This document shows, one piece after another, positions 9,847-62,859 of a stretch of 64,000 bases of DNA. The translations under genes and the position numbers were made by a program. Source of the stretch: Pelagerythrobacter rhizovicinus (GTDB lineage: Bacteria; Pseudomonadota; Alphaproteobacteria; Sphingomonadales; Sphingomonadaceae); contig NZ_SDPV01000002.1 of the NCBI RefSeq assembly GCF_004135625.1, forward strand, positions 992,001 to 1,056,000. The letters are read 5' to 3'. Within the stretch, counting starts at the first letter, position 1. Every line of letters starts with the position of its first letter. The notes under the pieces are model-generated. The model searched no databases and was not told where the DNA came from. It was given only the letters and a program-made list of their open reading frames with translations.

Positions 9847-10659
9847 TTACCGGACGTCTGGCGCTTGCGGTGCTTCGGGCGCCCCGGGTGCGGCCGGAGC
9901 GGCGGGCGGCGAGGGCGGCGCCTCGCCGCTCGCGGTGCCCGTGCGGCAGTTGAGCGAGCCCGAGCCCATCGCGCTGATCGTGCACTGGGCGGAGCCGGTC
10001 ACGGTCACGTCGCCCGAACCCATGATCGACGCCTCGACCCTGCCGTCGGAAGCAAACGCCGCATCGCCGGAACCCGCGATCGAGACATCGGCCCTGCCGA
10101 CCTGGAGGCCGTCCATCCGTGCATCGCCCGAACCGGCGATCGTCAAGTCGAGCTGCTCGGCGCGGCCCGCGGCGCGATAGGTGCCCGAACCCGCGATCGT
10201 CACTTCGAGCGAGGTCGTATCGACATTGGCGGTTTCGGCCGTGCCGCTGCCCGCGATGGTCACTTCGGCGTCGCCGTCGAGCAGATCGACTTCGGCGCGG
10301 CCCGATCCGGCGAGCACGAGCTTATCGAGCCGCGGCAGCGTGACGCGCACGGTGGCGGTGCCGTCGACGTCGTTCCAGTCGTTCTCGCGCATGACGCCCA
10401 GCGTCTCTTCATCGAACGTGAAGCGCAGGGCATCGATCGCCTCCTGGTCACCGCTCACGTCGATGGCGAGCGCGTCGCCGCGCGTGACGACCACGTTGTC
10501 GGGGCCCGCAAGAACCAGTTCGGTCGGGCTCTTGCCTTCGAGGTCGAGCTCGGAAAGAGGCACGCCGTCCGAACCGTTGATGTTGATGTTTCCGTTGCAG
10601 CCGGTGGCCATCATCAGCGCGACAACCGGCGCAACCCCCTTGAGAATCTTCTGCAGCAT
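9847..10659 (-). CDS. Head-GIN/DUF2807 beta-solenoid lipoprotein
   Basis: The 270-residue protein starts at 10659, supported by AGGAAGG before the ATG and by a signal with lipobox ATGC (Cys21). The middle is a DUF2807 putative auto-transporter adhesin head domain made of repeated short strands ending in GSG: LVLAGSGRAE, VTIAGSGTAE, VTIAGSGTYR, LTIAGSGDAR, VSIAGSGDAA, ASIMGSGDVT and ISAMGSGSL. This regular pattern predicts a right-handed beta-solenoid. The C-terminus is a Pro/Ala-rich tail. A lipid-anchored envelope location is inferred; the role is unknown. Confidence 0.85.
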   Translation of the reverse strand: MLQKILKGVAPVVALMMATGCNGNININGSDGVPLSELDLEGKSPTELVLAGPDNVVVTRGDALAIDVSGDQEAIDALRFTFDEETLGVMRENDWNDVDGTATVRVTLPRLDKLVLAGSGRAEVDLLDGDAEVTIAGSGTAETANVDTTSLEVTIAGSGTYRAAGRAEQLDLTIAGSGDARMDGLQVGRADVSIAGSGDAAFASDGRVEASIMGSGDVTVTGSAQCTISAMGSGSLNCRTGTASGEAPPSPPAAPAAPGAPEAPQAPDVR

Positions 10660-10738
10660 GTGAACCTTCCTCGTGCCGAAATGGACCCAGCCCGTATTGC
10701 CGACATAATACAGCAGTATCGTCCGTTCAACCCGATAC

Positions 10739-10767
10739 GAAAAAGGCCGCCCGGCAGGGCGGCCTTT
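10739..10767. terminator. Bidirectional intrinsic terminator, best for carD
   Basis: GGCCGCCC (10745-10752) and GGGCGGCC (10757-10764) form a perfect eight-base stem with a GGCA loop. Five A bases precede it and three T bases follow, so it can act in both directions. The longer U-run is on the leftward transcript, 47 bases after the carD stop. Confidence 0.85.
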
Positions 10768-10786
10768 CGTCGGTCGGACACGACGC

Positions 10787-10820
10787 TTGGTCGAAATCAG
10801 GCCTTGGTCGAAATCAGGCC
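10787..10820. repeat. Perfect 17-bp tandem duplication across the carD stop codon
   Basis: TTGGTCGAAATCAGGCC occurs twice head to tail at 10787-10803 and 10804-10820. The second copy contains the carD stop (10814-10816) and its last two codons; the first copy repeats the same stop region downstream. The unit is not a multiple of three, so a slip here inside the gene would change the C-terminus, but as placed the reading frame ends in the first copy met. Confidence 0.9.
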
Positions 10821-11347
10821 TCTTCGGCGTTCTCGTAGTACTGCGGCGCATGTTCGCGCAGGACATTGAGGATCTTCTCGAGCGCGGCCGGCTCGTCAGT
10901 CTTCTCCATCGCCGCCAGCTCGCGCGCGAGGCGGCTCGAGGCCGCTTCGAAGATCTGCCGTTCGGAATAGGACTGCTCGGGCTGATCCTCCGGGCGGAAC
11001 AGGTCGCGCGTCACCTCGGCGATCGAGACGAGGTCGCCCGAGTTGATCTTCGCTTCGTATTCCTGCGCGCGGCGGCTCCACATCGTGCGCTTGATCTTCG
11101 GCTTGCCCTTGAGCGTCTCCATCGCTTCCTTCAGCGTCTTGTCGCTCGACAGCTTGCGCATGCCGATCGCTTCGACCTTGTTGGTGGGAACGCGAAGCGT
11201 CATCCGCTCCTTCTCGAAGCGAAGCACGTAGAGCTCGAGCTGCATCCCGGCGATTTCCTCGTTCTGCAGCTCGATCACACGGCCGACGCCGTGCTTGGGG
11301 TAGACGACATAGTCGCCGACATCGAAGGCGGGAGCCTTGCTGGCCAT
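10814..11347 (-). CDS. CarD-family RNA polymerase-binding regulator
   Basis: The 177-residue protein has the N-terminal RNA polymerase-interacting domain (FDVGDYVVYPKHGVGRVIELQ, seen at about 8-28) and a helical C-terminal DNA-binding domain with the basic stretch KRTMWSRRAQEYE. CarD/CdnL proteins bind the polymerase beta subunit and stabilise the open complex at rRNA and other growth-related promoters, acting together with sigma factor. The protein ends in NAEEA. It stands alone, 245 bases after the ferredoxin gene, and has its own terminator. Confidence 0.93.
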   Translation of the reverse strand: MASKAPAFDVGDYVVYPKHGVGRVIELQNEEIAGMQLELYVLRFEKERMTLRVPTNKVEAIGMRKLSSDKTLKEAMETLKGKPKIKRTMWSRRAQEYEAKINSGDLVSIAEVTRDLFRPEDQPEQSYSERQIFEAASSRLARELAAMEKTDEPAALEKILNVLREHAPQYYENAEEA

Positions 11348-11506
11348 GCAAAAATCCTTTCTGCGGTCGGGCCCCGGGGGCAGAAGTCAAATCGCCCTCG
11401 CGCCGCGCCGCATCGGGCGCGGTCGAACGGTCGATTGTCCTGTCGCGAGTGGTCCGGACCTTTCTGCTGTCACGCCTGCGACCGGCAGAACCGGTGCAGT
11501 TGTTGC

Positions 11507-11512
11507 ATTATA
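11507..11512 (-). promoter_or_regulatory. Possible -10 element for carD
   Basis: Read leftward, a perfect TATAAT lies about 160 bases before the carD start, inside the short AT-rich part of this gap. No convincing -35 box is present at 16-18 bases; the nearest, GCAATT, is poor. Offered only as a candidate. Confidence 0.3.
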
Positions 11513-11592
11513 TAGCATAACAGCAAGAAAATTGCGAGTCCGCAGTAAGACTCCCGAATCGGGACGCCGCGCCCCGCCTTCGGTCCGGCGGA

Positions 11593-11931
11593 TCAGTCGC
11601 CCTCGCCGGGCTCGGGCGTGAAGTACTTGTCGAACTTGCCTTCCTCGCCCTTGTGCTCGTCGGCGTCCTCCGGCGGGTCCTTCTGGCTGGTGATGTTCGG
11701 CCATTCGGCCGAATATTTCGCATTGAGCTCAAGCCACTGTTCGAGGTCGCTTTCGGTGTCGGGCAGGATCGCCTCGGCCGGGCATTCAGGCTCGCACACG
11801 CCGCAGTCGATGCACTCGCTGGGATTGATCACCAGCATTGTCTCGCCCTCATAGAAACAGTCGACCGGGCAGACCTCGACGCAATCGGTGTACTTGCACT
11901 TGATGCAGGCGTCGGTGACGACATAGGTCAT
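11593..11931 (-). CDS. fdxA: FdxA-type 7Fe ferredoxin
   Basis: The 112-residue ferredoxin has cysteines at 9, 12, 17, 21, 25, 40, 43, 46 and 50. C9, C17 and C50 fit the [3Fe-4S] cluster, and C21, C40, C43 and C46 the [4Fe-4S] cluster, with the spacing of Azotobacter ferredoxin I shifted by one residue. The C-terminal extension to residue 112 is typical of the alphaproteobacterial FdxA. It is a soluble low-potential electron carrier; the partner is not evident here. It follows the S4/helicase pair on the same strand after 34 bases and may share their transcript. Confidence 0.94.
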
Positions 11932-48703: not shown

Positions 48704-49864
48704 ATGCATAGCGGCATAAAGATTCTTACAGTGTTCGGGACGAGGCCTGAGGCGATCAAGATGGCGCCTGTGGTCCAGGCGCTCGCCGGAGCTGACGGAG
48801 TGGTCGCCCGCGTTTGCGTGACGGGGCAGCACCGGCAGATGCTTGATCAGGTCCTCGACCTGTTTGGCATCGTACCCGACTATGATCTTGATCTGATGAA
48901 GCCGGGGCAGGACCTAACTGATATTACATGTAACGTGCTTGGTGGGCTGCGCCCAATACTGTCCGACTTTCAGCCCGACATGGTTCTGGTTCACGGTGAC
49001 ACCTCCACGACGTTGGCGGCATCGCTGGCCGCCTACTACCAGCGTATTCCTGTAGGTCATGTCGAGGCGGGGCTGAGGACAGGGGATATTTTGTCCCCTT
49101 GGCCTGAGGAGGTGAATCGAAAAGTCGCTGGTACCGTAACACGGCTGCACTTTGCACCTACCGAGCGGTCACGGCAGAATCTGATCGCGGAGAACGTCTT
49201 GCCCGAGCATATTCATGTGACCGGCAATACGGTGATCGATGCACTGCAGGAAGTCGTCGGACATATTGAAGCCGATGCCTCGCTGGAGGCGGATTTGGCC
49301 GGACACTTCGACTTGGATGCGGCAAGGCACCTAATCCTCGTCACGGGCCATCGCCGTGAGAGCTTCGGCGGCGGTTTCGAGCGTATTTGCGCCGCGCTGG
49401 TGGAGATTGCGGCTCGTGAGGATGTTGAGATTGTATACCCGGTGCACCTGAATCCAAACGTGAAAGGCCCTGTTGAGCGGCTTCTTTCGGACTTGCCGAA
49501 CGTGCGACTGATCGAGCCCCAGGACTATCTTCCGTTCGTCTACCTGATGAATCGCGCCTCGATCATTCTGACGGACTCAGGTGGTATCCAGGAAGAAGCG
49601 CCGTCTCTGGGCAAGCCGGTGCTGGTAATGCGCGACACGACCGAGAGGCCTGAAGCGCTCGACGCGGGTACGGTTCGGCTTGTCGGAACTGATACGGCCC
49701 TCATCGTCAGCAACGTTTCGCAGCTACTAGATAGTCGAGAAGCGTACCAAGAGATGAGCTTTGCCCATAACCCCTACGGAGATGGACAGGCTTCCAAGCG
49801 GATTTTGTCGGCAATACGGCAATGGGCAAAGGGGTATGCAACGGAGGTGGCGACTGCCGTATGA
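48704..49864 (+). CDS. wecB: WecB, non-hydrolysing UDP-N-acetylglucosamine 2-epimerase
   Basis: The 386-residue protein has the expected family segments [41 protein letters not shown] and [29 protein letters not shown]. It interconverts UDP-GlcNAc and UDP-ManNAc by a transient 2-acetamidoglucal. Its stop overlaps the wecC start by four bases, so UDP-ManNAcA is the intended product. The 177-base gap before it follows the dehydratase gene and may hold a promoter. Confidence 0.96.
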
Positions 49865-51135
49865 GCAAGCGTTTCGAAGTGATATCCGTTATCGGTCTAG
49901 GATACATAGGGTTGCCTACGGCAGCAATGTTTGCGTCACGCAAACTGAGCGTGATCGGCGTCGACGTGAACGAGCGTGCGGTTGATACTATCAACTGTGG
50001 CGAGATTCATATCGTCGAGCCCGATCTCGACATCGCCGTGCACTCGGCCGTCACGGAAGGCTACTTGCGGGCTACTTCACAGCCCGAACCAGCCGATGCG
50101 TTCCTTGTTGCGGTGCCGACACCCTTTAAGGGGGACCATCGGGAGCCCGATCTGAGCTATATCGAAGCGGCCGCCCGCGCTGTCGCGCCCGTGCTGAAGC
50201 GCGGCGACCTGGTAGTGCTGGAATCAACGTCGCCAGTGGGGGCGACGGAGCAGATGGCAGATTGGCTGGCGGAGGCCCGCTCGGATCTTACCTTTCCTCA
50301 AGCGGCAGGAGAGGATTCCGACATCCGCATCGCATATTGCCCGGAGCGTGTGTTGCCGGGCAAGGTAATGCAGGAGTTGATTCACAATGATCGCGTGATT
50401 GGCGGGATGACGCCGAAATGCTCCACCGCCGCCGTGACCCTCTACAAGCTCTTCGTTGAAGGGGAATGCGTCGTCACTGACGCCCGTACGGCAGAGATGG
50501 CAAAGTTGACCGAAAACAGCTTCCGTGACGTCAACATTGCCTTCGCGAACGAGCTTTCAATCATCTGCGATAAGCTCGACGTCGACGTTTGGGAGCTGAT
50601 TGCCCTCGCCAACCGCCATCCGCGGGTGAATATCCTACAGCCAGGCCCCGGGGTGGGTGGTCATTGCATCGCAGTGGACCCCTGGTTCATCGTCTCGAAG
50701 ACGCCAGCGGAGGCGCGCCTGATCCGAACTGCGCGTGAGGTGAACGATGCGAAACCTGGGTGGGTAATCGAGAAACTGAGAGAGGCGGTCAAAGAGTGGC
50801 TGGGCGAGAGCGCTGACCGGAGGGAGGAAGACCTCGTGATTGCGTGTTACGGGATTTCCTTTAAGGCCGACATTGACGATCTTCGCGAGAGTCCGGCCTT
50901 GGCCATTGTCGAGGAATTATCCCGCTCACACGCCGGCGAGATATGGATTGTCGAACCGAATATAGCTCGGCTCCCCCGCTCCCTTGATGGAAGGGCCCGG
51001 CTAGTTTCGCCTTCAGAAGCTCTGGAGAATGCGGATGTAGGAGCTTTGCTCGTGGATCATAAAGAGTTCCGAGCATTACCGGAGCCTGCCGGCAGGTTGC
51101 TTGACTTTAAAGGCGTTCGCCAAAGGACTTCGTGA
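49861..51135 (+). CDS. wecC: WecC, UDP-N-acetyl-D-mannosamine 6-dehydrogenase
   Basis: The 424-residue enzyme has the NAD fold [29 protein letters not shown] and the catalytic cysteine segment [16 protein letters not shown]. It oxidises UDP-ManNAc twice to UDP-ManNAcA, an acidic unit of many surface glycans. The ATG at 49861 overlaps the wecB stop; pseB follows after one base. The C-terminal domain [14 protein letters not shown] is present, so the protein is complete. Confidence 0.96.
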
Positions 51136-51136
51136 T

Positions 51137-52135
51137 ATGCTAAATGGGAAGACCGTCTTGGTAACCGGTGGGACCGGCTCGTTCGGTAACACATTCGTGC
51201 CATTGACATTGGACAAGTACAACCCAAAGAAAATCATCATATTCTCACGCGATGAGATGAAGCAGTGGGAGATGGCGAAGAAGTTCACCCACGATGACCG
51301 TGTTCGCTTCTTCATTGGTGACGTCAGGGATCGTGACAGGTTGTACCGCGCGCTGGATGATGTCGATTTTGTGGTTCACGCTGCGGCGACTAAAATCGTC
51401 CCAACCGCTGAATACGATCCTTTTGAATGCGTAAAAACCAATGTTATCGGTGCAATGAATCTGATCGATGCGTGTATAGATAAGGGCGTCAGGCGTGTTG
51501 TTGCGCTTTCAACTGACAAGGCCAGCAGTCCCATAAATCTTTACGGGGCGACAAAATTAGCGTCGGATAAGCTGTTCGTGGCTGGTAATTCCTATTCGGG
51601 AGGTCGCGATACGCGTTTCTCGGTAGTTCGATATGGCAACGTCATGGGATCTCGTGGCTCGGTCATCCCGTTCTTTATGTCCATCAAGGACCGCGGTGTT
51701 TTGCCGATAACCGATGAGAGGATGACCCGTTTCATGATCTCTCTCGAGCAAGGCGTGGAACTGGTGTGGCATGCGCTTGAGGACATGGAGGGGGGTGAGA
51801 TCTACGTGAAGAAAATTCCCTCGATGAAGGTGACCGATCTCGCGCGTGTGATTGCTCCCGATGCGAAGCTAGAAATTGTCGGCATGCGTCCGGGCGAGAA
51901 GTTGCACGAGCAGATGATAAGTGCGGAAGACGCCACCTCGACCTACGAGTATCCGGAGCACTTCAAAATACTGCCGACCATACATCGGTGGGATGAGGAT
52001 GCAGGACGTATAAAGGATGGCAAGCGACTGGCTGAGGGTTTCGTTTACTCAAGCGACAACAATGCAGAGTGGATGACTCCTGACGAACTGGGCAACTGGA
52101 TTGCCGCCAACAGAGACAAGATCGGAAATATCTGA
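51137..52135 (+). CDS. pseB: PseB, UDP-N-acetylglucosamine 4,6-dehydratase (inverting)
   Basis: The 332-residue SDR has the NAD motif GGTGSFG (11-17) and the catalytic set D127, K128, Y136 and K140 in STDKASSPINLYGATK, matching the Helicobacter FlaA1 residues with a five-residue shift. SVVRYGNVMGSRGSV is another PseB mark. It makes UDP-2-acetamido-2,6-dideoxy-beta-L-arabino-hexos-4-ulose, the first step of pseudaminic acid synthesis. AAAGGA precedes the ATG. Its stop shares one base with the pseC start (TGATG). Confidence 0.97.
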   Translation: MLNGKTVLVTGGTGSFGNTFVPLTLDKYNPKKIIIFSRDEMKQWEMAKKFTHDDRVRFFIGDVRDRDRLYRALDDVDFVVHAAATKIVPTAEYDPFECVKTNVIGAMNLIDACIDKGVRRVVALSTDKASSPINLYGATKLASDKLFVAGNSYSGGRDTRFSVVRYGNVMGSRGSVIPFFMSIKDRGVLPITDERMTRFMISLEQGVELVWHALEDMEGGEIYVKKIPSMKVTDLARVIAPDAKLEIVGMRPGEKLHEQMISAEDATSTYEYPEHFKILPTIHRWDEDAGRIKDGKRLAEGFVYSSDNNAEWMTPDELGNWIAANRDKIGNI

Positions 52136-53298
52136 TGGGAGGGATCCCTTATGGTAGGCAGGAAATTCTGCAGCCAGATATCGACGCGGTCGTCGATGTC
52201 CTCCGATCAGATTTTCTGACGCAAGGGCCCGTCGTCCCGGCGTTCGAGGCTAAAGTGGCGGCGTACTGTGGCGCTAGCCATGCGTCCGCGATGAATAGCG
52301 CGACCTCGGCCCTGCACGTCGCCTGTTTGGCATTGGGGTTGAAGCCAGGCGATTGGCTGTGGACCACGCCGGTCACTTTCGTCGCGTCATCCAATTGTGC
52401 GCTCCATTGCGGAGCGAAAGTCGACTTCGTCGATGTAGATCCTCGTACCTATAATCTCTCTCCCGATGCCTTGGAGCGCAAACTTAGGACGGCCAACGCG
52501 GCGGGGTGTTTACCGAAGATCGTCGTGCCCGTGCATCTGGCGGGCCAACCCTGCGACATGGAAGCGATCTACCGTCTCGCGCGCGAATATGGTTTCCATG
52601 TCATTGAGGATGCATCACACGCCATCGGTGGGCGCTATCAGGGCGAGCCCATCGGCAACTGCCGCTACAGCGATGTAACGATCTTCAGTTTTCATCCGGT
52701 AAAGATTATTACTACCGCCGAGGGCGGCATTGCACTGACCAACGACGCCGGGATAGCCGAGCGAATGAATTTGCTTCGCAGTCACGGCATCACGCGCGAG
52801 CCGCAATTGATGGCTGGCGGCTCCGACGGCCCCTGGTACTACGAACAGCTCGAGCTGGGGTACAATTACCGGATGACTGAGGTTCAGGCTGCGCTGGGTC
52901 TATCGCAGATTGAGCGGCTGGACGATTATGTCACCCGCCGACACAAACTGGCGCGTCGATATGACGATTTGCTCGAGGATCTGCCATTGACCCTTCCTTG
53001 GCAGCATCCTGACGGCTACTCAGGTCTCCACCTCTATATCGTGCGCCTGAATCTCGGAGAGATCAGAAAGACCCATCGCGAGGTATTCTCTTCTCTGCGA
53101 GAGCAGGGAATTGGCGTCAATCTTCATTACATCCCGATCTATCGCCAGCCGTACTATGAAAAACTCGGTCTCCGCCGCGAGGATTTTCCTCATGCTGAAG
53201 CATACTATCGAGAGGCGATAAGCCTGCCGATGTATCCGACGTTGACCGAGGAGGAGCAGGACCGCGTAGTCAAGGCATTGCATGAGGCGGCCAGTTGA
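52135..53298 (+). CDS. pseC: PseC, UDP-4-amino-4,6-dideoxy-N-acetyl-beta-L-altrosamine transaminase
   Basis: The 387-residue aminotransferase of the DegT/DnrJ/EryC1 family has PLP-lysine K190 in FSFHPVKIITTAEGG, EDASHAIGG as the aspartate region and GYNYRMTEVQAALGL. It transfers an amino group from glutamate to the PseB product at C4. PseC-specific features are IPYGRQ at the start and LPMYPTLTEEEQ at the end. It overlaps the next gene by four bases (TTGA, 53295-53298), so all pse genes are coupled. Confidence 0.96.
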   Translation: MGGIPYGRQEILQPDIDAVVDVLRSDFLTQGPVVPAFEAKVAAYCGASHASAMNSATSALHVACLALGLKPGDWLWTTPVTFVASSNCALHCGAKVDFVDVDPRTYNLSPDALERKLRTANAAGCLPKIVVPVHLAGQPCDMEAIYRLAREYGFHVIEDASHAIGGRYQGEPIGNCRYSDVTIFSFHPVKIITTAEGGIALTNDAGIAERMNLLRSHGITREPQLMAGGSDGPWYYEQLELGYNYRMTEVQAALGLSQIERLDDYVTRRHKLARRYDDLLEDLPLTLPWQHPDGYSGLHLYIVRLNLGEIRKTHREVFSSLREQGIGVNLHYIPIYRQPYYEKLGLRREDFPHAEAYYREAISLPMYPTLTEEEQDRVVKALHEAAS

Positions 53299-54923
53299 AC
53301 GCTACCATCGTACTCCAGGCGCGGACGTCATCTTCGCGCCTTCCCGGCAAAGTGCTTCTGCCTCTCGGAGGGATGCCGCTGGCAGTGCTCGCCGCAAAGC
53401 GCGCGGCCAACAGGGGGCATCGAGTCATTGTCGCCACATCGACTGAACGTGACGACGATGAACTGGCAAGATATATTGAAATCAATGGAATCGAGCTCTT
53501 TCGCGGCAGCCTCACGGATGTTTTGGGACGTTTTGTCGGAGCTATCAGCGACTGTGCAGATGATGCGCCAATCGTCAGGTTGACTGCCGACAATGTCTTT
53601 CCCGACGGCAATCTTATTGCAGATATCGAGAATGCATTCTGCGAAGCGGGAGTAGATTACCTGTCGTGCAACAGCGAGTATTCCGGATTTCCATACGGTG
53701 TGAGCGCTGAGGTGATGCGCGCAGGCGCTTTACGGCGCGCAGCCATCTGCGCGACCGATCCGCGGGATCGCGAACATGTGACACCGTGGATTGCTCGCCA
53801 CGCCTCCACAGCGAATTTCGTGCCAAAGCTGCCCGTCAATATGGCGAATTTTCGATGCACGATCGATGTTCTTGATGATTACCTGCTGGCGACGCGGATA
53901 TTTCGTAACGTAGATGATCCCGTCCGTGTTGCGCTTTCAGACCTGCTTACGTGTCTTGTTGTGTCGGTTGAAAAGCCTCTCGTAGTCCGTCCCGTCCAGA
54001 AGCTTGTTCTGGGCACCGCCCAACTCGGTATGGAGTATGGGATTGCAAACGCAACCGGTCGGCCGGCCGACGCGGAGGCGTGCGAGCTGATCCAAACTGC
54101 GATACGAAACGGCGTCCGTGCGTTGGATACCGCGCGCGCCTACGGAACGAGCGAAGCCGTGGTCGGTAAATCTCTGCGCGGAGGTTGGCGCGAACGGGTT
54201 AAGCTCCTCACGAAGCTGGAGCCGCATCTCACTGCCCTACCTGGCGCGGATTATGGTGTGATCGCGAACGACGTCGAATTTCAGGTGCTTCGTTCTTGCC
54301 GTGAGCTCGGGACGGAAAGTCTGGATGTCGTAATGCTGCACCGTGCAGAACATCTGACAGCTCATGATGGAGCGATCTGGCAGAGTCTGAAAGACCTTAG
54401 GGATCGGGGGCTCATAGGGGCGCTGGGGGTGTCGATCCAGAGTCCCGAAGAGTTACGCAGCGTTCTTGAGTACGACGATGTGGCACACCTGCAACTCCCG
54501 TTCAATGTTCTGGATAATCGATGGCGATCGGAAATTCCAAAGATTGTCGCGGCCAAAGCCGAACGGAATATCCAAGTTCATGCGCGGAGCGCGCTGCTGC
54601 AGGGTCTACTGGTTTCGCGCAACCAAGAGCATTGGTCTCGGGCAGGTGTGACGGAGCCCGAGGTGGTTTGGAAATGGCTGGACCGGTTGGTGCAGAGCTT
54701 CGGGCGCCATGATAGCGCCGATCTGGCATTGGCATTCGTGCGTTCGCAGCCATGGGTCGATGGCGTCGTGGTCGGGATCGAGACAATCGACCAACTCGAA
54801 CGGAATATTGCGACTTTCGACCGACCGCCACTGACTGACGAGCAATGCTTGGAATTGGAACGGACACGCGTCAAGCTGGGAGAGCAGGTGCTGAACCCCT
54901 CGCGATGGCTGCCGAGCGCATGA
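53295..54923 (+). CDS. pseF: Fusion of a PseF-like cytidylyltransferase and an aldo/keto reductase
   Basis: The 542-residue protein starts at a TTG that overlaps the pseC stop. Residues 1-230 are an SpsF/PseF-type nucleotidyltransferase with QARTSSSRLPGKVLLPLGG, expected to make CMP-pseudaminic acid. Residues about 236-542 form an aldo/keto reductase with the full catalytic tetrad D278, Y283, K307 and H349 (LDTARAYG, LTKLEP, MLHR). The joint is continuous with no stop or frame change. The N-domain has more in common with SpsF/PseF-like proteins than with CMP-Kdo or NeuA synthetases. The reductase substrate is unknown. Confidence 0.87.
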   Translation: MNATIVLQARTSSSRLPGKVLLPLGGMPLAVLAAKRAANRGHRVIVATSTERDDDELARYIEINGIELFRGSLTDVLGRFVGAISDCADDAPIVRLTADNVFPDGNLIADIENAFCEAGVDYLSCNSEYSGFPYGVSAEVMRAGALRRAAICATDPRDREHVTPWIARHASTANFVPKLPVNMANFRCTIDVLDDYLLATRIFRNVDDPVRVALSDLLTCLVVSVEKPLVVRPVQKLVLGTAQLGMEYGIANATGRPADAEACELIQTAIRNGVRALDTARAYGTSEAVVGKSLRGGWRERVKLLTKLEPHLTALPGADYGVIANDVEFQVLRSCRELGTESLDVVMLHRAEHLTAHDGAIWQSLKDLRDRGLIGALGVSIQSPEELRSVLEYDDVAHLQLPFNVLDNRWRSEIPKIVAAKAERNIQVHARSALLQGLLVSRNQEHWSRAGVTEPEVVWKWLDRLVQSFGRHDSADLALAFVRSQPWVDGVVVGIETIDQLERNIATFDRPPLTDEQCLELERTRVKLGEQVLNPSRWLPSA

Positions 54924-55723
54924 AACCCGGGTCCGTCTCCACCGATCTTCTGGGACGCACCGCGCTCATTACTGGCGCAACAGGTTACCTCGGTTCCGCA
55001 ATGGCTTGGGCCTTGGCCGGGGCCGGGGCGGAAGTGCTGATCAATGCGCGTAACATTGAAAACGCCGAGCGCCTCGCCGCCAAGATTCAAGAACGGGGAT
55101 GGAGCGCACAGCCTGCCGCCTTCGATGTCGTCGATCATGATGCGGTGGCAGCCGCGGCGGAACAGTACCTCGGCGACAGGCCTCTCAACATCTTGGTGAA
55201 CAATGCATACGCAGGTAGCGGCGGTACTATCGAGCACTCGTCTGCCGATGCGTATAGAGAGAGCTACGATGTTGCAGTCGTTTCGGCGCACAGATTGCTG
55301 CACGCGATGCTTCCGGCCCTGCGCCAAGCCGTGGAGCGCGATTTTCATGCGTCCGTGATCAACGTCGCGTCGATGTATGGTCTGGTGAGCCCTGATCCGC
55401 GTCTTTACGATACCGCGAAAGCTACGAATCCACCATTCTATGGCGCCGCCAAAGCAGCTTTAGTCCAATGGACGCGTTACGCTGCATGCGAGTTTGGCGC
55501 TCAGGGTATCCGGGTCAACAGCATCTCCCCCGGCCCGTTCCCCTCGCGGTTGGTGCAAGAGAATAGCCCCGAATTCGTGTCGCGCCTGGCCGAGCGCGTT
55601 CCGTTGGGCCGTGTGGGACAGGCCAGCGAAATCGCTGGCCCCCTCCTGTTTCTGGCTTCCGATGCTTCAACATACGTCAATGGCGCCAACCTCGTCGTCG
55701 ACGGGGGCTGGACTGCGTGGTGA
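54920..55723 (+). CDS. Short-chain dehydrogenase in the pseudaminic acid operon
   Basis: The 267-residue classical SDR has the nucleotide motif GATGYLG (19-25), NNAYAG, S151, Y174 and K178 (YGAAKAAL), so it is catalytically complete. PGPFPSRLVQENSPEFVSRL is the substrate loop. It lies between the pseF fusion and pseG with overlaps on both sides, so it belongs to the operon, but no known pseudaminic step needs an SDR here. The start at 54920 is inferred from the ATGA overlap; an ATG at 54905 is possible. Confidence 0.85.
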   Translation: MKPGSVSTDLLGRTALITGATGYLGSAMAWALAGAGAEVLINARNIENAERLAAKIQERGWSAQPAAFDVVDHDAVAAAAEQYLGDRPLNILVNNAYAGSGGTIEHSSADAYRESYDVAVVSAHRLLHAMLPALRQAVERDFHASVINVASMYGLVSPDPRLYDTAKATNPPFYGAAKAALVQWTRYAACEFGAQGIRVNSISPGPFPSRLVQENSPEFVSRLAERVPLGRVGQASEIAGPLLFLASDASTYVNGANLVVDGGWTAW

Positions 55724-56814
55724 CCTCGCCAGTTGTCTTGTTTCGCGCTGACGCTTCCTTCACGATTGGCGCAGGGCATGTCATGCGCTGCCTCACGCTG
55801 GCGGACGGTTTGAGAGAGCGCGGTTGGCAATGCCGATTTATCTGCCGGGAGTATCCGGGGCATCTGGGTGAGAATATCGCCCGCCGTGGTCATGCCGTGC
55901 AGCTTCTGCGTGCGAACCATGAGGCTTTTAAGGGCGGAGACGCCGCGCGGCTAGCGGCACCTTCTGCGGAAGATGCGGCCGCTGTGATTGCATGGTTGTG
56001 CGGCGATCCACCAGCATGGATCGTGGTTGATCACTATTCCCTCGATGCCGAGTGGGAGAAAGCGGTTTCCCCGCATTGTGATCGCCTGATGGTTATCGAC
56101 GATCTTGCTGACCGCGGGCATTACTGCGATGTGCTGCTCGATCAGACATTCGGGCGGACAGCGGCAGAGTACCGGGAGCACGTTTCCGCAGAGACCACGT
56201 TGCTGTGTGGCGTCGACTACGCTCTACTTCGTCCTGAATTCTCCATCTATCGTGAACATGCGCTCCGACGTCGAACTCGAACGGATCGCGTGGAGCAGAT
56301 TCTAGTAAGCTTGGGTGGCGGTGACACCGAGAGTATTGTTCGCAGAGTATTGGAACTGCTGGTATCGGCCGGGTTGCCGCGTAGCTGTCGCGTGAAGATC
56401 GTTATGGGATGGGGCGCTCCACTGAGTGCCGACATCAGGCTTGCTGCTCAAGAAGCACCGTGCAGTGTGGATGTGTTGCAAGGAGTTGATTCGATGGCCT
56501 CGCTTATGGCGGAGAGTGATATCGCGATCGGCGCAGCGGGTTCGTCGTCGTGGGAGCGCTGCTGCTTAGGGCTCCCTACCGTGATGATTGTACTGGCGGA
56601 TAATCAACGTGTGGTCGGGGAGAGTCTCGCAAGCGCCGGGGCAGCTCTTCTCGTGAAGATGGACGACATGGATGCCCACTTACCGATTGCGGCGACCACC
56701 TTGGTGCAAGATCATGCGGCCCGAAGTGCCATGGCGTTACGCGCCGCATCGGTTGTCGACGGGCGCGGCGTTGAACGTGTGATAAGAGCGATGGATGCGG
56801 CATATGCAGGATGA
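55720..56814 (+). CDS. pseG: PseG, UDP-2,4-diacetamido-2,4,6-trideoxy-beta-L-altropyranose hydrolase
   Basis: The 364-residue GT-B-fold hydrolase has the PseG marks FRADASFTIGAGHVMRCLTLADGL, VVDHYSLDAEWE, LLDQTFGR and GGGDTES, with GAAGSSSWERCCLGLP near the nucleotide site. It removes UDP from the diacetylated intermediate to release the free altrose derivative for PseI. The GTG at 55720 overlaps the SDR stop (GTGA); another GTG lies at 55717. Its end overlaps pseH by about 20 bases. Confidence 0.95.
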   Translation: MTSPVVLFRADASFTIGAGHVMRCLTLADGLRERGWQCRFICREYPGHLGENIARRGHAVQLLRANHEAFKGGDAARLAAPSAEDAAAVIAWLCGDPPAWIVVDHYSLDAEWEKAVSPHCDRLMVIDDLADRGHYCDVLLDQTFGRTAAEYREHVSAETTLLCGVDYALLRPEFSIYREHALRRRTRTDRVEQILVSLGGGDTESIVRRVLELLVSAGLPRSCRVKIVMGWGAPLSADIRLAAQEAPCSVDVLQGVDSMASLMAESDIAIGAAGSSSWERCCLGLPTVMIVLADNQRVVGESLASAGAALLVKMDDMDAHLPIAATTLVQDHAARSAMALRAASVVDGRGVERVIRAMDAAYAG

Positions 56815-57313
56815 GACCGCAGGCAGATTGCGTCCGCTGGCGGCCGATGATCTCGAAACCATTCGTGCTTGGCGCAACCATCCGAATGTCAGGTCCTCTA
56901 TGTTCTCGACCAATGAGATCACTCGAGAGGAGCATCAGGCGTGGTTTGATCGTGCTTCGGCGGACGCGGCACGACGGTTGCTGCTCCTGGAGCGTGATGA
57001 TCGCGCGATCGGCTTCGTTCAGTTTCAAGTCTTAGGCGAGGGCGGGATCGTCGAGTGGGGGTTCTATGTTGCACCTCGTGCACAGAAGGGAACTGGCAGT
57101 CTGCTCTCCCACCATGCGCTGCGATTCGCATTCCAGCACGCAGGGTTCCATAAAGTGTGCGGGCGGGTCCTCGCGTTCAATGAACCGTCGATCGCTTTCC
57201 ACTTAAAATTCGGCTTTCTGCGTGAAGGCATACTACGCGAACACCATTTCGACGGCTCGCGCTATCACGATGTTTTCTGCTTCGGCCTTCTGAAGTCGGC
57301 CTGGCACGATTGA
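56795..57313 (+). CDS. pseH: PseH, GNAT N-acetyltransferase of pseudaminic acid synthesis
   Basis: The 172-residue GNAT protein has GRLRPLAADDLETIRAWRNHPNVRSSMF, EWGFYVAPRAQKGTGSLLSHHALRFAF and FHLKFGFLREGILREHHFDGSRYHDVF, typical of UDP-4-amino-4,6-dideoxy-N-acetyl-beta-L-altrosamine 4-N-acetyltransferases. It adds the second acetyl group before PseG. The ATG at 56795 overlaps pseG; the ATG at 56804 is an alternative. The protein order pseC-(F)-(SDR)-G-H-I is complete. Confidence 0.94.
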   Translation: MRHMQDETAGRLRPLAADDLETIRAWRNHPNVRSSMFSTNEITREEHQAWFDRASADAARRLLLLERDDRAIGFVQFQVLGEGGIVEWGFYVAPRAQKGTGSLLSHHALRFAFQHAGFHKVCGRVLAFNEPSIAFHLKFGFLREGILREHHFDGSRYHDVFCFGLLKSAWHD

Positions 57314-57328
57314 GGCAAGGAACTGGGC

Positions 57329-58384
57329 ATGAACGAAACGCCGACTATTAACATCGCCGGGAGGGTAATCGGCCGCGAGTATTCTCCCTATGTGATCGCT
57401 GAACTCTCGGCCAATCACAACGGAAGCCTTGAAACAGCGCTCGCGATCGTCGAAGAGGCGGCAAAGGCCGGCGCGGACGCAATCAAGCTGCAAACGTACA
57501 CGGCGGACACCATAACTCTAAAAAGCGACGCTCCCGAATTCCGCATTGAAGGCGGTCTTTGGGATGGCGAGACTCTGTACGATCTGTACGAAAAGGCTCA
57601 CACGCCATGGGATTGGCACAAGGTGCTTTTTAAGCGAGCGCAGCAACTCGGCCTCGCGGCGTTCAGTTCTCCTTTCGACCGCACGGCGGTGGACCTGTTG
57701 GAGGATCTTAATGTGCCGGCTTACAAGATCGCCTCGTTCGAGGCCGTCGATCTCCCCCTCATCCGCTATGTTGCCAGCACCGGCAAACCCATGATCATTT
57801 CAACCGGCATGGCTGATGCGGACGAGATCGCTGAAGCTGTAGCGGCGGCACGCGATGGCGGATGTCGTGAACTCGCAATTCTCCACTGTGTGAGCGGCTA
57901 TCCTGCGCCGGCTGAAGACTACAACCTGGCTACCATTCCCGACATGATTCGTCGTTTTGGCCTCGTGACGGGGCTTTCCGATCATACGCTCGACAACAGC
58001 ACGGCGATCGCGTCGGTTGCGCTCGGCGCCTCGTTGATCGAGAAGCATTTTACGCTGGACCGGGGTGGCGGCGGGCCCGATGACAGCTTTTCACTGGAGC
58101 CGGAAGAGCTCGCGGCCCTGTGCCGTGACGCCAGAACGGCCTGGGCTGCCGTGGGTGAGGTGGACTACGGGCGCAAGTCGAGCGAAACCGGCAATATCAA
58201 GTTCCGCCGTTCACTCTATTTCGTCAAGAGTCTTAAGGCTGGTGAAACGATCACGGCGGAGTCCGTCCGTAGCGTTCGTCCCGGATATGGGTTGCCGCCA
58301 AAAATGCTCGACTCGATCATCGGAACGAAGGTCGTAACTGACGTCGCCCGGAATACCCCCGTGACTTCGTTAGTGATTAGCTAA
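57329..58384 (+). CDS. pseI: PseI, pseudaminic acid synthase
   Basis: The 351-residue NeuB-family enzyme has a TIM barrel (YVIAELSANHNGSLETAL, ADAIKLQTYTADTITL, KIASFEAVDLPLI, GLSDHTLDNSTAIASVALGASLIEKHFTLDR) and a C-terminal SAF antifreeze-like domain (about 290-351). It condenses 2,4-diacetamido-2,4,6-trideoxy-L-altrose with phosphoenolpyruvate to pseudaminic acid. AKLQTYT and FSSPFD are PseI-like segments. It follows pseH by 15 bases and completes the pathway apart from CMP activation. Confidence 0.96.
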   Translation: MNETPTINIAGRVIGREYSPYVIAELSANHNGSLETALAIVEEAAKAGADAIKLQTYTADTITLKSDAPEFRIEGGLWDGETLYDLYEKAHTPWDWHKVLFKRAQQLGLAAFSSPFDRTAVDLLEDLNVPAYKIASFEAVDLPLIRYVASTGKPMIISTGMADADEIAEAVAAARDGGCRELAILHCVSGYPAPAEDYNLATIPDMIRRFGLVTGLSDHTLDNSTAIASVALGASLIEKHFTLDRGGGGPDDSFSLEPEELAALCRDARTAWAAVGEVDYGRKSSETGNIKFRRSLYFVKSLKAGETITAESVRSVRPGYGLPPKMLDSIIGTKVVTDVARNTPVTSLVIS

Positions 58385-58397
58385 GGTTGTTGATCCG

Positions 58398-59126
58398 ATG
58401 AACGTGCTAATCAACCATTTAAAGGTGGTAGGCGTTTCCTTCCACATGCGGCTGCGTGGACAGAAGGGTCCATTCAAATTTCTTAGGCATGAGACAGCTC
58501 AAATATTTCCGGGTGTAATTCCGCGGGCGGTTTGCGAGGAAGCCAGAAATACTATCGATCAAGTCCTAGACCGAGGGGACAATAACCGAATTTGGCGTGA
58601 TGCAACTGGTTCGGATAGCCGAATACTCGGATTTGAGAAAGATATTCCCGCGCTCTTGCCCTACTTTTATGTTGAGAGTTGTATAAGCGCCATCGATTCA
58701 TATCTGGGTAAGTCAACTCAGTCGTGGCTTTTAATGGCAAATCGTTTAATTCCTCGGAGCGGCAACAAGGGATCAGGTGGCGGACTTCACAGGGACTCGC
58801 CTTTTTCGCATCAGGTGAAATGCATATGGTATCTTAGCGACGTACATGCGGCTAATGGACCATTCGAATATGTTCCGGGTTCTCATCGGAACTTGTATTC
58901 TCAGCGCAACAAATATCCTATTGGCACTTATCGTTTCGAGAATGTTTCTGAGGAGCGTAAGGCTATCACCGCTGAGGCGGGGTCCCTCTTAGTATGCGAC
59001 ACTCGGGCGATTCACGGGGGGCGGCCGATCGCGGAGGGATCTCGGTACGCAGTTACGTTGTACACCTTTGACGACGCAACGGGCGCCGACCGGCTATTCC
59101 GAAGTTCCGGGTTAAAACCCGACTGA
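58398..59126 (+). CDS. PhyH-family Fe(II)/2-oxoglutarate dioxygenase
   Basis: The 242-residue protein has the iron-binding facial triad H131, D133 (LHRDSPF) and H206 (RAIHGGRP), with the jelly-roll segments VKCIWYLSDV and GPFEYVPGSHRN. This is the phytanoyl-CoA dioxygenase superfamily, which hydroxylates diverse small molecules, including sugars. It starts 13 bases after pseI and has lower GC than the pse genes. Its substrate is unknown; a nonulosonic acid or lipid-linked sugar is inferred from position. Confidence 0.87.
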   Translation: MNVLINHLKVVGVSFHMRLRGQKGPFKFLRHETAQIFPGVIPRAVCEEARNTIDQVLDRGDNNRIWRDATGSDSRILGFEKDIPALLPYFYVESCISAIDSYLGKSTQSWLLMANRLIPRSGNKGSGGGLHRDSPFSHQVKCIWYLSDVHAANGPFEYVPGSHRNLYSQRNKYPIGTYRFENVSEERKAITAEAGSLLVCDTRAIHGGRPIAEGSRYAVTLYTFDDATGADRLFRSSGLKPD

Positions 59127-59164: not shown

Positions 59165-60334
59165 GTGGAGCGCTTGCTGCGTCTTCTTTTTCAAAGAGGG
59201 GTAACCCTTCTCCTGCGGCCCGCGGCTTTGCTAGCGGAGGGGTTCCTCATTCCGGATGCGAACGTACTTGTCTTCGTGCTGCCCGCAGCTGCGATGGCGC
59301 TGACATTGTCATCCATTCCGGTGCATCTCGATTTCTTCCGAATGGCGAGCCATGCCACCAGTACCAGGGTGGAAAGGAACTACATTTCCGGTCTTATAAT
59401 TCTCTCGTTCATCAGCATTGTATTGCTCGCAGGGCTGCTGTTTCTATCGAAGTCTAGTCTTGGGATCGGTTTTGCGATAATTGCGACGTTTATTTCTGAA
59501 AAGTTTGCGGACGAGCTTACGCGATTCTATGAATTCAACAAGAAGTACTCGTTATGGTTCGTTGCGCAGATGTCCCGTAGCATGTGGCTCTTCATACCTA
59601 TTGGGTTGGCTCTAGCGGGCATTCATTACATCATCTCCTTTTGCGCACTCGCTTCCGTCGCTGCGGTCGTACTCGCTTGGCGCTTCTTTTCCGCGACGGG
59701 ACTGCGTCCAGTTTGGAACCGGGGTGGCTTCATGCTCATAAAGGCAAATGTGCCGTTCCTTGGCAGTTCTGCGCTTCTGGCCTGCCACCGGCAGGTGCCT
59801 CGCCTCTTTGTGGCTTTCTTGTTTCCGCAGGTCGCCCACGTATTCCAAGCATTGGCGCAGCTAGGACAAGGCGTGTCCTTGATATTCAATGTGCGGTATC
59901 AGATACCATATCGCAAAGTGATTGCGCGACGACCCCTTACTTTTGAGCGCCTCTTTCGTCGGCCCTTCCTGCGGATCGGTGGACTGTCCCTAGTCGGCGC
60001 AGCGCTCGGATTGATTATCGGCGATTCTTCCTACTATTCGATTGGGGCGTTTGCGTGGGTCGGCCTGGGGATCGCGATGTTGGCGGATGCTCTCGCTTTC
60101 TCGCTACTGGCGACCTATCTGGGGTTGATGTCGTGGTTTCTGGCACCTTCTCAAGCGCTACCAACTCTGCTGAAAATGGCCGTGTTCTTCCTAGTGGCGT
60201 TCTTCTCGACTTATGGTGCATGGGTTTTTCTCGATGGCCCGCTGGTTCTTGCGCCGATTTTTACAACGCTCCTATCCTTGGGATCGATTGCATTGATCAA
60301 GGGGCGTCATTTGGACGGGAAGCATCATGCGTGA
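59165..60334 (+). CDS. Polytopic membrane protein, probable polysaccharide flippase
   Basis: The 389-residue protein has about ten hydrophobic segments and no soluble domain. The layout and the position between sugar synthesis and a polymerase fit a Wzx-like flippase, but it is shorter than usual (about 420-480 residues) and no clear MOP-family motif is read. The start is a GTG within GGAGTGGAG, which is both start and possible ribosome-binding site. Its end overlaps the next gene by eight bases. It could also be a transporter subunit of another kind. Confidence 0.6.
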   Translation: MERLLRLLFQRGVTLLLRPAALLAEGFLIPDANVLVFVLPAAAMALTLSSIPVHLDFFRMASHATSTRVERNYISGLIILSFISIVLLAGLLFLSKSSLGIGFAIIATFISEKFADELTRFYEFNKKYSLWFVAQMSRSMWLFIPIGLALAGIHYIISFCALASVAAVVLAWRFFSATGLRPVWNRGGFMLIKANVPFLGSSALLACHRQVPRLFVAFLFPQVAHVFQALAQLGQGVSLIFNVRYQIPYRKVIARRPLTFERLFRRPFLRIGGLSLVGAALGLIIGDSSYYSIGAFAWVGLGIAMLADALAFSLLATYLGLMSWFLAPSQALPTLLKMAVFFLVAFFSTYGAWVFLDGPLVLAPIFTTLLSLGSIALIKGRHLDGKHHA

Positions 60335-61550
60335 AGGTCGATCCGCTACCCGAAGCGCTGCCTCAAATGGGCCTCCGCATGAGAACATCCTTCACGCAAC
60401 GGAAGGTCTTGCTAGGGTCGCGAGGGAGAATACGACTAAGCTCATAGCTGTACTTTTCTTTCAAGAAGCTATATGGCTAGGGCTTAACAGAATAGTTAAT
60501 AGGGGTCACACATTCTATATAACATCGGAGTTCTATACTCCGATGTTTCTTATGTTGATCGCTCTGGCCGGGATATACACATTTCTTGGGTGGGTGTTCT
60601 CTAGGGGAATTACTTCGTTCCCGAGAATATATGTGCGTCCGAGGGCCATGACGCTGACTTTCCTGGTCGCGATTGTCGCGAATGTTCTGGCTGCGGGCTT
60701 CTTGGCGGAGGGTGCTCGCTATAATTCCGGGGAACTGACTGGCGTCACGGGGGTCATCTATGCCATTGCGCGGGCTGCGTCCTTGATGGTCATGGTGCTC
60801 GCCATCAAAGGTAGATACGGGCGTGGATCACCGGCCAACACCTTTCTGCTAATCGCATTTGTGGTCAGTATGGCCATAACAATTGATGGTTTGGCGATAG
60901 CTCTGACCATATCGGCGTTCTTGTGTGTATTGCTTAGGGTAAAGACATCCCATGATATCCTGCTAGGGATTCTTGCATTTGTCCTAGTTGGTACTGCATT
61001 TTACATTGGATTTTGGTCTAAGTTCTCAGTGATTCCTGCATATCTAACGCCCGAATTTGCCTTCCGATGGTCAATATCAAGGATGTCTATATCCGCTGAG
61101 AGCCTCTACAAGTATTTATCTGGGGAGAGCATGTTTAATGACTCTATGGCTTATCTGGATGTTATCCAAAGGTCATATCTGAATCGCTATAATGTCATAA
61201 TGGGTGAGGGATTTGTGCCGAGCTTCCCCCGCTCGGTGTCTGAGGGATTTTACATGGACATGTACCGGGTGCCAGGAGCTGGATCGAGCCCCGGATTCTA
61301 CCTTGGCATCCTCCTTCATGGCTTGTTTTCTCCACTATTCTTGCTTGCGTTCACATGGATGTTTATGCAGCTATTCTATGGCATAAGAACATCCTTTGGA
61401 TACGTTCGTATATTTGCTCTATCTCTGATATTGAAGGTCGTGCATGGCAACGTGACAGAGTATATAATAGTTCTCTCGCCAAGCATAATGATCGTTGTGT
61501 TGTTTATCCTAGCGTGTCTCATCGAGGTACGTGATGGTAAGGCGCGGTGA
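60327..61550 (+). CDS. Polytopic membrane protein, probable Wzy-like polymerase
   Basis: The 407-residue protein has about ten to eleven hydrophobic segments. A loop containing RSYLNRYNVIMGEGFVPSFPRSVSEGFYMDMYRVPGAGSSPGFYLG precedes the last segments, which is the place of the long periplasmic loop in oligosaccharide polymerases. Codons here are noticeably AT-rich compared with the rest of the window, as in many serotype-specific genes. It overlaps the next gene by 20 bases. The family is not certain. Confidence 0.6.
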   Translation: MREGRSATRSAASNGPPHENILHATEGLARVARENTTKLIAVLFFQEAIWLGLNRIVNRGHTFYITSEFYTPMFLMLIALAGIYTFLGWVFSRGITSFPRIYVRPRAMTLTFLVAIVANVLAAGFLAEGARYNSGELTGVTGVIYAIARAASLMVMVLAIKGRYGRGSPANTFLLIAFVVSMAITIDGLAIALTISAFLCVLLRVKTSHDILLGILAFVLVGTAFYIGFWSKFSVIPAYLTPEFAFRWSISRMSISAESLYKYLSGESMFNDSMAYLDVIQRSYLNRYNVIMGEGFVPSFPRSVSEGFYMDMYRVPGAGSSPGFYLGILLHGLFSPLFLLAFTWMFMQLFYGIRTSFGYVRIFALSLILKVVHGNVTEYIIVLSPSIMIVVLFILACLIEVRDGKAR

Positions 61551-62859
61551 CGGTGAGGGTGTACTCGGGGTGATGCTTGATGCGTTTAATGCAATGATCG
61601 AGCGTTCGAGCGCGTTCTTCGCCAACGAGCGCTATCAAGGAATTGCAGGGGGCATTTCCGCTAGGCGACCGATATTCAAGGTGCTCTTCCCCATAGTACG
61701 TTGGGCTTCTCGATCCCGACTCGGGAATTTAGTTCTGCTCGTGATTGCGTTACTGCTTTACAGGGCCATCAGGGTTCCCTCGGGCGAGGCACTGTTCCAA
61801 ATTGGTTTGTCGCAGAATAATGAGCGAGCTTTTCGCCGCATCAATGAGGCCTCGGCACGCCAGCAATGGAGCGCCTCGATCAATGGCTCGCCAGTTCAGC
61901 TCAGCACACGGCTCAGGAGTTTGTTACATCTTTCGCTCCTTTGGCGACTCGCTGGAAAGTTGCAGCAGAGGGAGGGAAACGGGCCGTTTGCACACGTGCA
62001 GCTAGTGCTCACGTTGACCGCATGGACGATATTTAGAACCAGTGATTTTCGCGGCGTTCAATGCGTCTGCATAGCGAGTGACCATTCCCCCGCCGCGTTC
62101 GCACTGGTTAGCATTGCCCAAGACAGGGGGCTTAAAACATGTTACGTACAACATGCACCAGTCGCTGATTATTTTCCGCCGTTAATATACGATCTCTCAA
62201 TATTGTTCGACAGGGCGTCTCGGGCGAAATATGAGGCTAGTGCCGCTAATCATAGGACAACGAACAAAGGGCGCGTAATTATTCTTCCTCCGTTTGATGA
62301 GGAAGCGTCGCTTCCAGATCTTCCGCACCGTCCTGCCTACAGGATAGGATTGTGCCTCAGCTATCTTTGGGACACCGCCGGGGTCGGGAAGCTTGTGCTG
62401 GAGTTGCTAGATCATCCCTCGGTGGAGTCTATCCGCTTACGGCGGCATCCTCGCTGCAAAGCGAGTTTGGCAACGCTGCTGCGTGACAAACGGGTCACGG
62501 AATCTCGATCCACCCGCCTCGCAGAGTTCGCTCAAGAATGCGATATAGCGCTCGTCCCCAACAGTGGTGTGGCGATCGAGTTACTCCATCTAGGGCGGCC
62601 GGTAATGTACACTCCAGGTACTGATTTTATTGCCAATGATTACTATGGGTTCGTGCGCGAGGGAATCATTCCGCTTTTCCGAGGAGAATGGCTGACTGCA
62701 CCAAAGCAACTACGACGGTTCTTCGGGGACGAATGGAAAGAACGGTATGCCGCCTTCGATGAAACAATTGCCGAGCCGTTGGAGGTATCGCGAACGCGCG
62801 CCGGAAAGGCCTTCCGAGATCTCGTGGAAACACCGCGTCCGGGATTCGCGAGAGGGTAG
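61531..62859 (+). CDS. Unknown GT-B-like protein of the polysaccharide locus (possible nonulosonic acid transferase)
   Basis: The 442-residue protein has one hydrophobic N-terminal segment (about 66-82) and then an alternating alpha-beta body. CYVQHAPVADYFPPLIYDLSILFD resembles the QHG-P-D acceptor loop of capsule polymerases and CDP-glycerol/polysialic-type transferases. LVPNSGVAIELLHLGRPVMYTPGTDF matches a C-terminal donor-site loop. Those features suggest a GT-B transferase without a named family. The start is GTG at 61531 or ATG at 61534. Being the only unusual transferase here, it is a candidate to transfer the modified pseudaminic acid. Confidence 0.55.
   Translation: MMVRRGDGEGVLGVMLDAFNAMIERSSAFFANERYQGIAGGISARRPIFKVLFPIVRWASRSRLGNLVLLVIALLLYRAIRVPSGEALFQIGLSQNNERAFRRINEASARQQWSASINGSPVQLSTRLRSLLHLSLLWRLAGKLQQREGNGPFAHVQLVLTLTAWTIFRTSDFRGVQCVCIASDHSPAAFALVSIAQDRGLKTCYVQHAPVADYFPPLIYDLSILFDRASRAKYEASAANHRTTNKGRVIILPPFDEEASLPDLPHRPAYRIGLCLSYLWDTAGVGKLVLELLDHPSVESIRLRRHPRCKASLATLLRDKRVTESRSTRLAEFAQECDIALVPNSGVAIELLHLGRPVMYTPGTDFIANDYYGFVREGIIPLFRGEWLTAPKQLRRFFGDEWKERYAAFDETIAEPLEVSRTRAGKAFRDLVETPRPGFARG

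Follow-up and report, generated by a model that had tools for sequence, protein, structure and literature searches.

The window analysed here, a stretch of 64,000 nucleotides from Pelagerythrobacter rhizovicinus (contig NZ_SDPV01000002.1, positions 992,001 to 1,056,000), carries on its plus strand, at 51137–58384, a nearly gapless operon of seven genes in the order pseB, pseC, cytidylyltransferase/aldo-keto reductase (AKR) fusion, short-chain dehydrogenase/reductase (SDR), pseG, pseH and pseI. It is best read as a chromosomal pathway to 8-epipseudaminic acid, a new member of a kind reported in 2025, which extends beyond the Acinetobacter baumannii genomes screened in that work. The five genes of pseudaminic acid (Pse) synthesis were all present in the order and on the strand given by the original prediction, each scoring above its NCBIfam equivalog cut-off: pseB (51137..52135; TIGR03589, 536 bits against a cut-off of 408), pseC (52135..53298; TIGR03588, 562 against 424), pseG (55717..56814; TIGR03590, 285 against 154), pseH (56795..57313; TIGR03585, 122 against 93) and pseI (57329..58384; TIGR03586, 504 against 340). 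In a whole-genome profile search, pseI was the sole NeuB-family match. The linkage by overlaps claimed for these genes held at every junction except pseH/pseI, which is a gap of 15 bases.

The two remaining genes lie between pseC and pseG, and Pfam domains confirmed the earlier description of an AKR fused to a cytidylyltransferase-type domain and followed by an SDR. The EpaA-like fusion (53295..54923, 542 amino acids (aa), with a TTG start overlapping the pseC stop) consists of CTP_transf_3 at residues 5–174 (PF02348, 1.7e-17) and Aldo_ket_red at residues 236–522 (PF00248, 3.5e-42). The EpaB-like SDR (54920..55723) belongs to the adh_short_C2 family (PF13561, 2.5e-44). Its start at 54845 in the list of open reading frames is probably too early, because an ATG at 54920 overlaps the fusion stop (ATGA) and gives a protein of 267 aa, consistent with the lengths of its relatives. 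Conservation was counted over 62 AKR and 56 SDR rows, with AKR matches shorter than 240 aa and SDR matches shorter than 200 aa left out. Residues D278, Y283, K307 and H349 of the fusion, which we take to be the AKR catalytic tetrad, were kept in 62 of 62 rows; among the presumed catalytic residues of the SDR, Y174 and K178 were kept in all 56 rows, S151 in 54 and N95 in 52. The predicted structures had a mean confidence score (pLDDT) of 91.5 and a template-modelling score (pTM) of 0.65 for the fusion, and a mean pLDDT of 92.5 for the SDR. By sequence profile, the best solved relative of the cytidylyltransferase domain was a Leptospira cytidylyltransferase (6oew); the nearest solved folds of the AKR domain include AKRtyl, AKR11 enzymes and DepB (8hwn), and those of the SDR include sugar-acid dehydrogenases such as gluconate 5-dehydrogenase. 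Arg44 of the SDR, located after the second strand, is almost invariant. By the usual rule an arginine at this position favours NADP(H), and if the SDR does use this cofactor, the pair could be redox-neutral.

Compared with the standard CMP-pseudaminic acid pathway (PseB, PseC, PseH, PseG, PseI and PseF), the operon has the first five enzymes above their cut-offs and differs in the added AKR and SDR and in the lack of a PseF above cut-off. The best match to PseF (TIGR03584) in the whole genome, which is 99.98% complete, reached 11 bits against a cut-off of 206, and the only other CTP_transf_3 match over cut-off was a partial one of 34.9 bits elsewhere in the genome, perhaps KdsB. Because no match reaches the PseF cut-off, the cytidylyltransferase domain of the fusion is likely the CMP-activating enzyme standing in for PseF. 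The original prediction regarded both extra enzymes as unnecessary for standard Pse5Ac7Ac; for the fusion this would not stand, since a domain that likely replaces PseF makes it more than an accessory. Among the 21 genomes with full fusions (loci L046–L066), many of them draft metagenome-assembled genomes (MAGs), 18 had no match over the PseF cut-off and three did (L051, L052, L059); counting genomes with fusions or fragments, PseF exceeded the cut-off in 5 of 23. When five PseF proteins were used to search the 26 fusion-bearing stretches collected below, the only match was a cytidylyltransferase at 33% in L001. A question raised by this pattern is whether the cytidylyltransferase domain of EpaA is specific for the 8-epimer, in which case the fusion and the loss of PseF would lock the pathway to it.

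A pair of the same architecture has been characterized in A. baumannii, where epaA and epaB are two prophage genes (Sharar et al., 2025; PMC12053666; the reports cited here were available in part, and what is said of them refers to those parts). EpaA has 542 aa with CTP_transf_3 at residues 5–192 and Aldo_ket_red at 239–525, EpaB is an adh_short_C2 protein of 262 aa, and after complementation with the pair the capsule contained mainly the 8-epimer in place of Pse, as determined by nuclear magnetic resonance (PMC12053666). In that capsule the H-9 methyl signal lies at 1.10 ppm for 8ePse and at 1.20 ppm for Pse (PMC12053666). The P. rhizovicinus fusion shares the length, the domain order and similar domain borders, its SDR belongs to the same family and adjoins the fusion in the same direction, and both pairs accompany a Pse pathway, known in P. 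rhizovicinus from pseB, pseC, pseG, pseH and pseI as genes alone. The Acinetobacter pair, however, resides on prophages, and the K locus there makes CMP-Pse with psaA-F (PMC12053666), whereas in P. rhizovicinus the pair lies inside the pse operon of a genome with no PseF match over cut-off. New relative to the literature is that the pair is chromosomal and widespread: the reports of 8-epipseudaminic acid consulted here come from A. baumannii, and the distribution screen of Sharar et al. covered 27,079 genomes filed as this species (PMC12053666).

We consider it rather probable (about 0.72) that the product of the operon is CMP-8-epipseudaminic acid (8ePse5Ac7Ac), destined for a surface polysaccharide. 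Pse5Ac7Ac would arise by the standard route through PseB, PseC, PseH, PseG and PseI; the EpaB-like SDR and the EpaA-like AKR domain would invert C8 by oxidizing its hydroxyl to a ketone and re-reducing this from the opposite face, without net redox change provided that both use NADP(H); and the cytidylyltransferase domain would load CMP in place of PseF. Epimerization by oxidation and re-reduction is also the way in which DepA/DepB convert the mycotoxin alcohol deoxynivalenol, with an AKR in the re-reduction half, although the substrate and the oxidase are unrelated and the analogy is chemical only. To the observed gene set and order, conserved catalytic residues, fusion–SDR linkage and absence of a PseF over cut-off, the Acinetobacter work on EpaA/EpaB would add C8 as the site. 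We infer, further, which of the two enzymes oxidizes and which reduces, the cofactor, whether the substrate is free Pse or CMP-Pse, and the activity of the cytidylyltransferase domain. The part of the original prediction in which an epimer arises because the SDR and AKR oxidize one carbon and reduce it again is probably right, in agreement with the published pair (PMC12053666). Its suggestion of an undescribed nonulosonic acid is probably wrong, because the likely product, 8-epipseudaminic acid, and the fusion–dehydrogenase arrangement are both already in print (PMC12053666, PMC7371886).

Several points weigh against this reading. The sequence cannot tell which carbon changes, and the orthology of the P. 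rhizovicinus pair with EpaA/EpaB rests on architecture rather than on a direct alignment, as the Acinetobacter proteins (SBS22546.1 and SBS22545.1) were not found in the phage, plasmid, viral-contig and genome collections searched. Two of the 26 fusions (L049, L061) had no neighbouring SDR match, and four (L001, L058, L059, L066) had no Pse-type match above 150 bits in the examined stretch, L066 having none at all. In two further loci (L003, L020) pse genes are accompanied by an AKR and the examined stretch gave no SDR match, so the AKR may serve another purpose in them. Finally, 29 AKR–SDR pairs, described below, showed neither a cytidylyltransferase nor a pse match in the examined stretch, and the 32 genomes with AKR-only or fragment loci are short of true PseI, so that Pse is less likely to be the substrate in them.

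Since the sequence leaves the carbon open, the SDR and AKR might act at a position other than C8, for example C4, and so give a different stereoisomer of a 5,7-diamino nonulosonic acid. A similar gene pair occurs in Vibrio B9-25K2, reported in 2020, whose pse cluster places a dehydrogenase after a fusion of an SpsF-type cytidylyltransferase and an AKR (PMC7371886). That strain makes a PseAc2 of undetermined configuration with an unusual tandem mass spectrometry pattern, different from that of Moritella viscosa, which its authors explained by an epimer and/or N-acetyl groups placed elsewhere (PMC7371886). The Vibrio cluster resembles the operon in the succession of pseC, fusion and dehydrogenase and in having no NeuA homologue, but its PseH belongs to a bifunctional protein that includes a lipid-metabolism-associated domain, and the next gene is methylmalonyl-CoA-epimerase-like, whereas the PseH of P. 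rhizovicinus is ordinary (PMC7371886). Against another carbon, the only characterized pair of such architecture that was found changes C8 (PMC12053666), and AciE, an adh_short_C2 SDR to which EpaB is 41.5% identical (PMC12053666), is linked to 8-epiacinetaminic acid in A. baumannii K73 (PMC5595891). AciE is thus another SDR of this family tied to the 8-epimer of a nonulosonic acid, although its sugar is derived from legionaminic acid and the available text mentions no AKR fusion (PMC5595891). Taken together, we regard a change at another carbon as unlikely. A further lead, Sinorhizobium RkpN as an AKR fusion and RkpO as an SDR, was rejected: RkpN is PseF-like (46% identity to PseF) and RkpO is PseG-like (PMC7591256).

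The distribution of the fusion was examined in a scan of 84,980 species with an alignment of three sequences, run via two short peptide patterns, so that the counts are a lower bound. It returned 56 loci, comprising 21 full fusions, 31 AKRs without a cytidylyltransferase match (one of them, L095, cut at the contig start) and four partial or rearranged loci (L097, L098, L099, L101), among which L099 has the AKR and cytidylyltransferase domains in reverse order and was left out of the fusion count. With the window, two plasmid loci and two Moraxellaceae genomes, 26 fusions were collected. An SDR with at least 40% identity to that of the window adjoined the fusion in 24 of the 26; a Pse-type gene above 150 bits was present in 22 stretches, PseI (at least 40% identity) in 19, and the order pseB–pseC–fusion–SDR–pseG–pseI in 12, and the counts of PseI, Pse-type genes and gene order are understated since some stretches finish at contig ends (e.g., L052, L054, L059). 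Record titles place the full fusions in Pseudomonadota, Chlorobiota, Bacillota and Candidatus Raymondiibacteriota, several of them in MAGs, where misplaced contigs are possible. In samples the fusion is rare: in that of the phylum, 9 of 398 genomes matched at E ≤1e-30, with both domains in one stretch only in the window's own genome; among 59 sampled relatives the single match at 1e-40 was again that genome, as was the single one of 35 sampled family genomes with PseI over cut-off. The 26 fusions predict 8-epipseudaminic acid in many unrelated bacteria and supply its gene signature. One of the plasmid loci, L001 (3298–6045), from a Maritalea plasmid, encodes a protein of about 915 aa, a cytidylyltransferase–AKR fusion with an extra C-terminal region.

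These counts also bear on the alternative that ordinary CMP-Pse5Ac7Ac is the product of the operon, with the fusion working as cytidylyltransferase only and the AKR and SDR acting on another sugar or being silent. All genes for Pse are indeed there if the cytidylyltransferase domain is counted as PseF, and some pse clusters do carry an AKR with no SDR match in the examined stretch. Yet the core catalytic residues are kept (the AKR tetrad in every row, the SDR Tyr and Lys likewise, and its Ser in nearly all), and the SDR adjoins nearly every fusion, which makes this alternative improbable, slightly more so than a change at another carbon.

Trees were built separately for the AKR (62 rows) and the SDR (56 rows), and each of them placed the window in a clade of 12 rows with SH-aLRT support of 99. 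Both trees were quick searches with many weak forks, and only these clades were used; long branches in the AKR tree include L099, L021, L003 and L014. Eleven loci are common to the two clades: the window, Halomonas, Pseudomonas uvaldensis, Salinisphaera, Psychrobacter, a Thiotrichaceae MAG, a Chlorobium MAG, Nitrincola, a Burkholderiaceae MAG and the two Moraxellaceae genomes. The remaining row of the AKR clade was L049, for which no SDR match was obtained, and that of the SDR clade was L097, with an AKR fragment too short for the tree.

The original prediction had asked whether the SDR and AKR travel only with pse genes. The fusions largely do, in the 22 of 26 stretches noted above, but the 29 AKR–SDR pairs with neither a cytidylyltransferase nor a pse match (L068, L069 at 9980–11703, L070–L078, L080–L096 and L100; SDR identity 43–50%) do not. 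Their record titles read Alphaproteobacteria, Rhizomicrobium or Proteobacteria, and no unrelated known function was found for these pairs; in L069, the one locus checked, a cNMP-binding/patatin-type gene lies 3' of the pair by Pfam. Among the 32 genomes with an AKR only or fragments (L067–L096, L100, L101), 29 had a NeuB-family match and 2 reached the PseI cut-off, compared with 111 and 39, respectively, in a class sample of 240 genomes; most of the 32 are close relatives, and the NeuB excess says little. The pairs without a cytidylyltransferase domain may act on another nonulosonic acid, possibly made elsewhere in the genome, or on something else. One genome of this set (L145, 4746–8885) has a NeuB gene without a SAF match beside a protein of 591 aa that combines a cytidylyltransferase domain with a weakly PseG-like region (24%, 51 bits), with a TPR protein nearby, a locus that recalls flagellin glycosylation loci.

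On a wider view, the AKR–SDR pair could be an old portable epimerase of nonulosonic acid side chains, taking two forms. In several phyla it would be part of a self-contained chromosomal pse-epa operon whose EpaA fusion has taken the place of PseF; in Rhizomicrobium and further alphaproteobacteria it would stand as a pair lacking the cytidylyltransferase, perhaps with a flagellar nonulosonic acid as substrate. Such operons would then be where the Acinetobacter prophages obtained their copy. We put this forward tentatively, at somewhat less than even odds; if true, the known cases from Acinetobacter would greatly understate how common 8-epi sugars are. The operons point to a possible chromosomal source of the phage epa genes. 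In the tblastn searches for the Acinetobacter sequences, three phage records gave partial and weak matches, and 2 of 270 plasmid records covered at least 80%, neither of them from Acinetobacter. Viral contigs scanned with the fusion gave no match; with the SDR, one scan gave a single SDR at 27% and another 19 SDRs at 25–46%, and none of the 22 loci from a DNA-pattern scan had an AKR match at 1e-8. A search of 299 genomes of one family gave two matches, one being the query's own genome. In 175 genomes of one Moraxellaceae genus, both matches lay within a pse operon, and these operons are a possible source of the prophage epaA-epaB. The same seven-gene operon occurs in the two genomes (L144, 7517–14807; L172, 11004–18320), with neighbours that resemble capsule genes (starts judged by eye).

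In P. rhizovicinus, the same run of genes continues upstream of pseB on the plus strand with wecB, coding for UDP-GlcNAc 2-epimerase (48704..49864; TIGR00236, 507 bits against a cut-off of 210), and wecC, for UDP-ManNAc dehydrogenase (49822..51135; NF008286, 727 against 459). Matches to wecB-wecC also lie immediately 5' of the same operon in L053 (a Burkholderiaceae MAG) and L057 (Legionella brunensis). The named neighbours of the fusion and the SDR, wecB, wecC and the pse genes, are polysaccharide genes, which speaks against a prophage location, although no scan aimed at prophages was run. The genes measured between 46487 and 62859 have a G+C content of 48–61%, against 67% for window bases 1–46000, and this low value fits acquisition from outside.

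Directly 3' of pseI, Pfam identified a PhyH-family oxygenase gene (58398–59126). It brings in one more possibility, that the AKR and SDR make a stable keto or deoxy derivative, possibly tailored by this oxygenase. Since EpaA/EpaB yield an epimer in Acinetobacter (PMC12053666), and a PhyH match accompanied only two other fusions among the loci tested (L064, L065), weak and distant in both, such a derivative seems very improbable. The three following genes (59165–60334, 60327–61550 and 61531–62859) received no name from either library searched, Pfam or NCBIfam; our guess is that their products are a flippase, a polymerase and a transferase.

Other arrangements of the AKR were seen beside pse genes. 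In a Pseudosulfitobacter plasmid (L003, 6852–16450), the pse cluster contains an AKR with no SDR match, and the start of a class III aminotransferase matches the cytidylyltransferase domain. A similar list of genes, namely PseG, class III aminotransferase, cytidylyltransferase, AKR and NeuB, is reported from Legionella pneumophila serogroup 6 (PMC3694923). In Calothrix (L067, 6813–14834) and Calditrichia (L079), pseB-pseC are followed by an AKR without a fused cytidylyltransferase and by a more distant SDR (31–32% identity); in Calothrix, two separate cytidylyltransferase-like genes, recognized by eye, lie in between.

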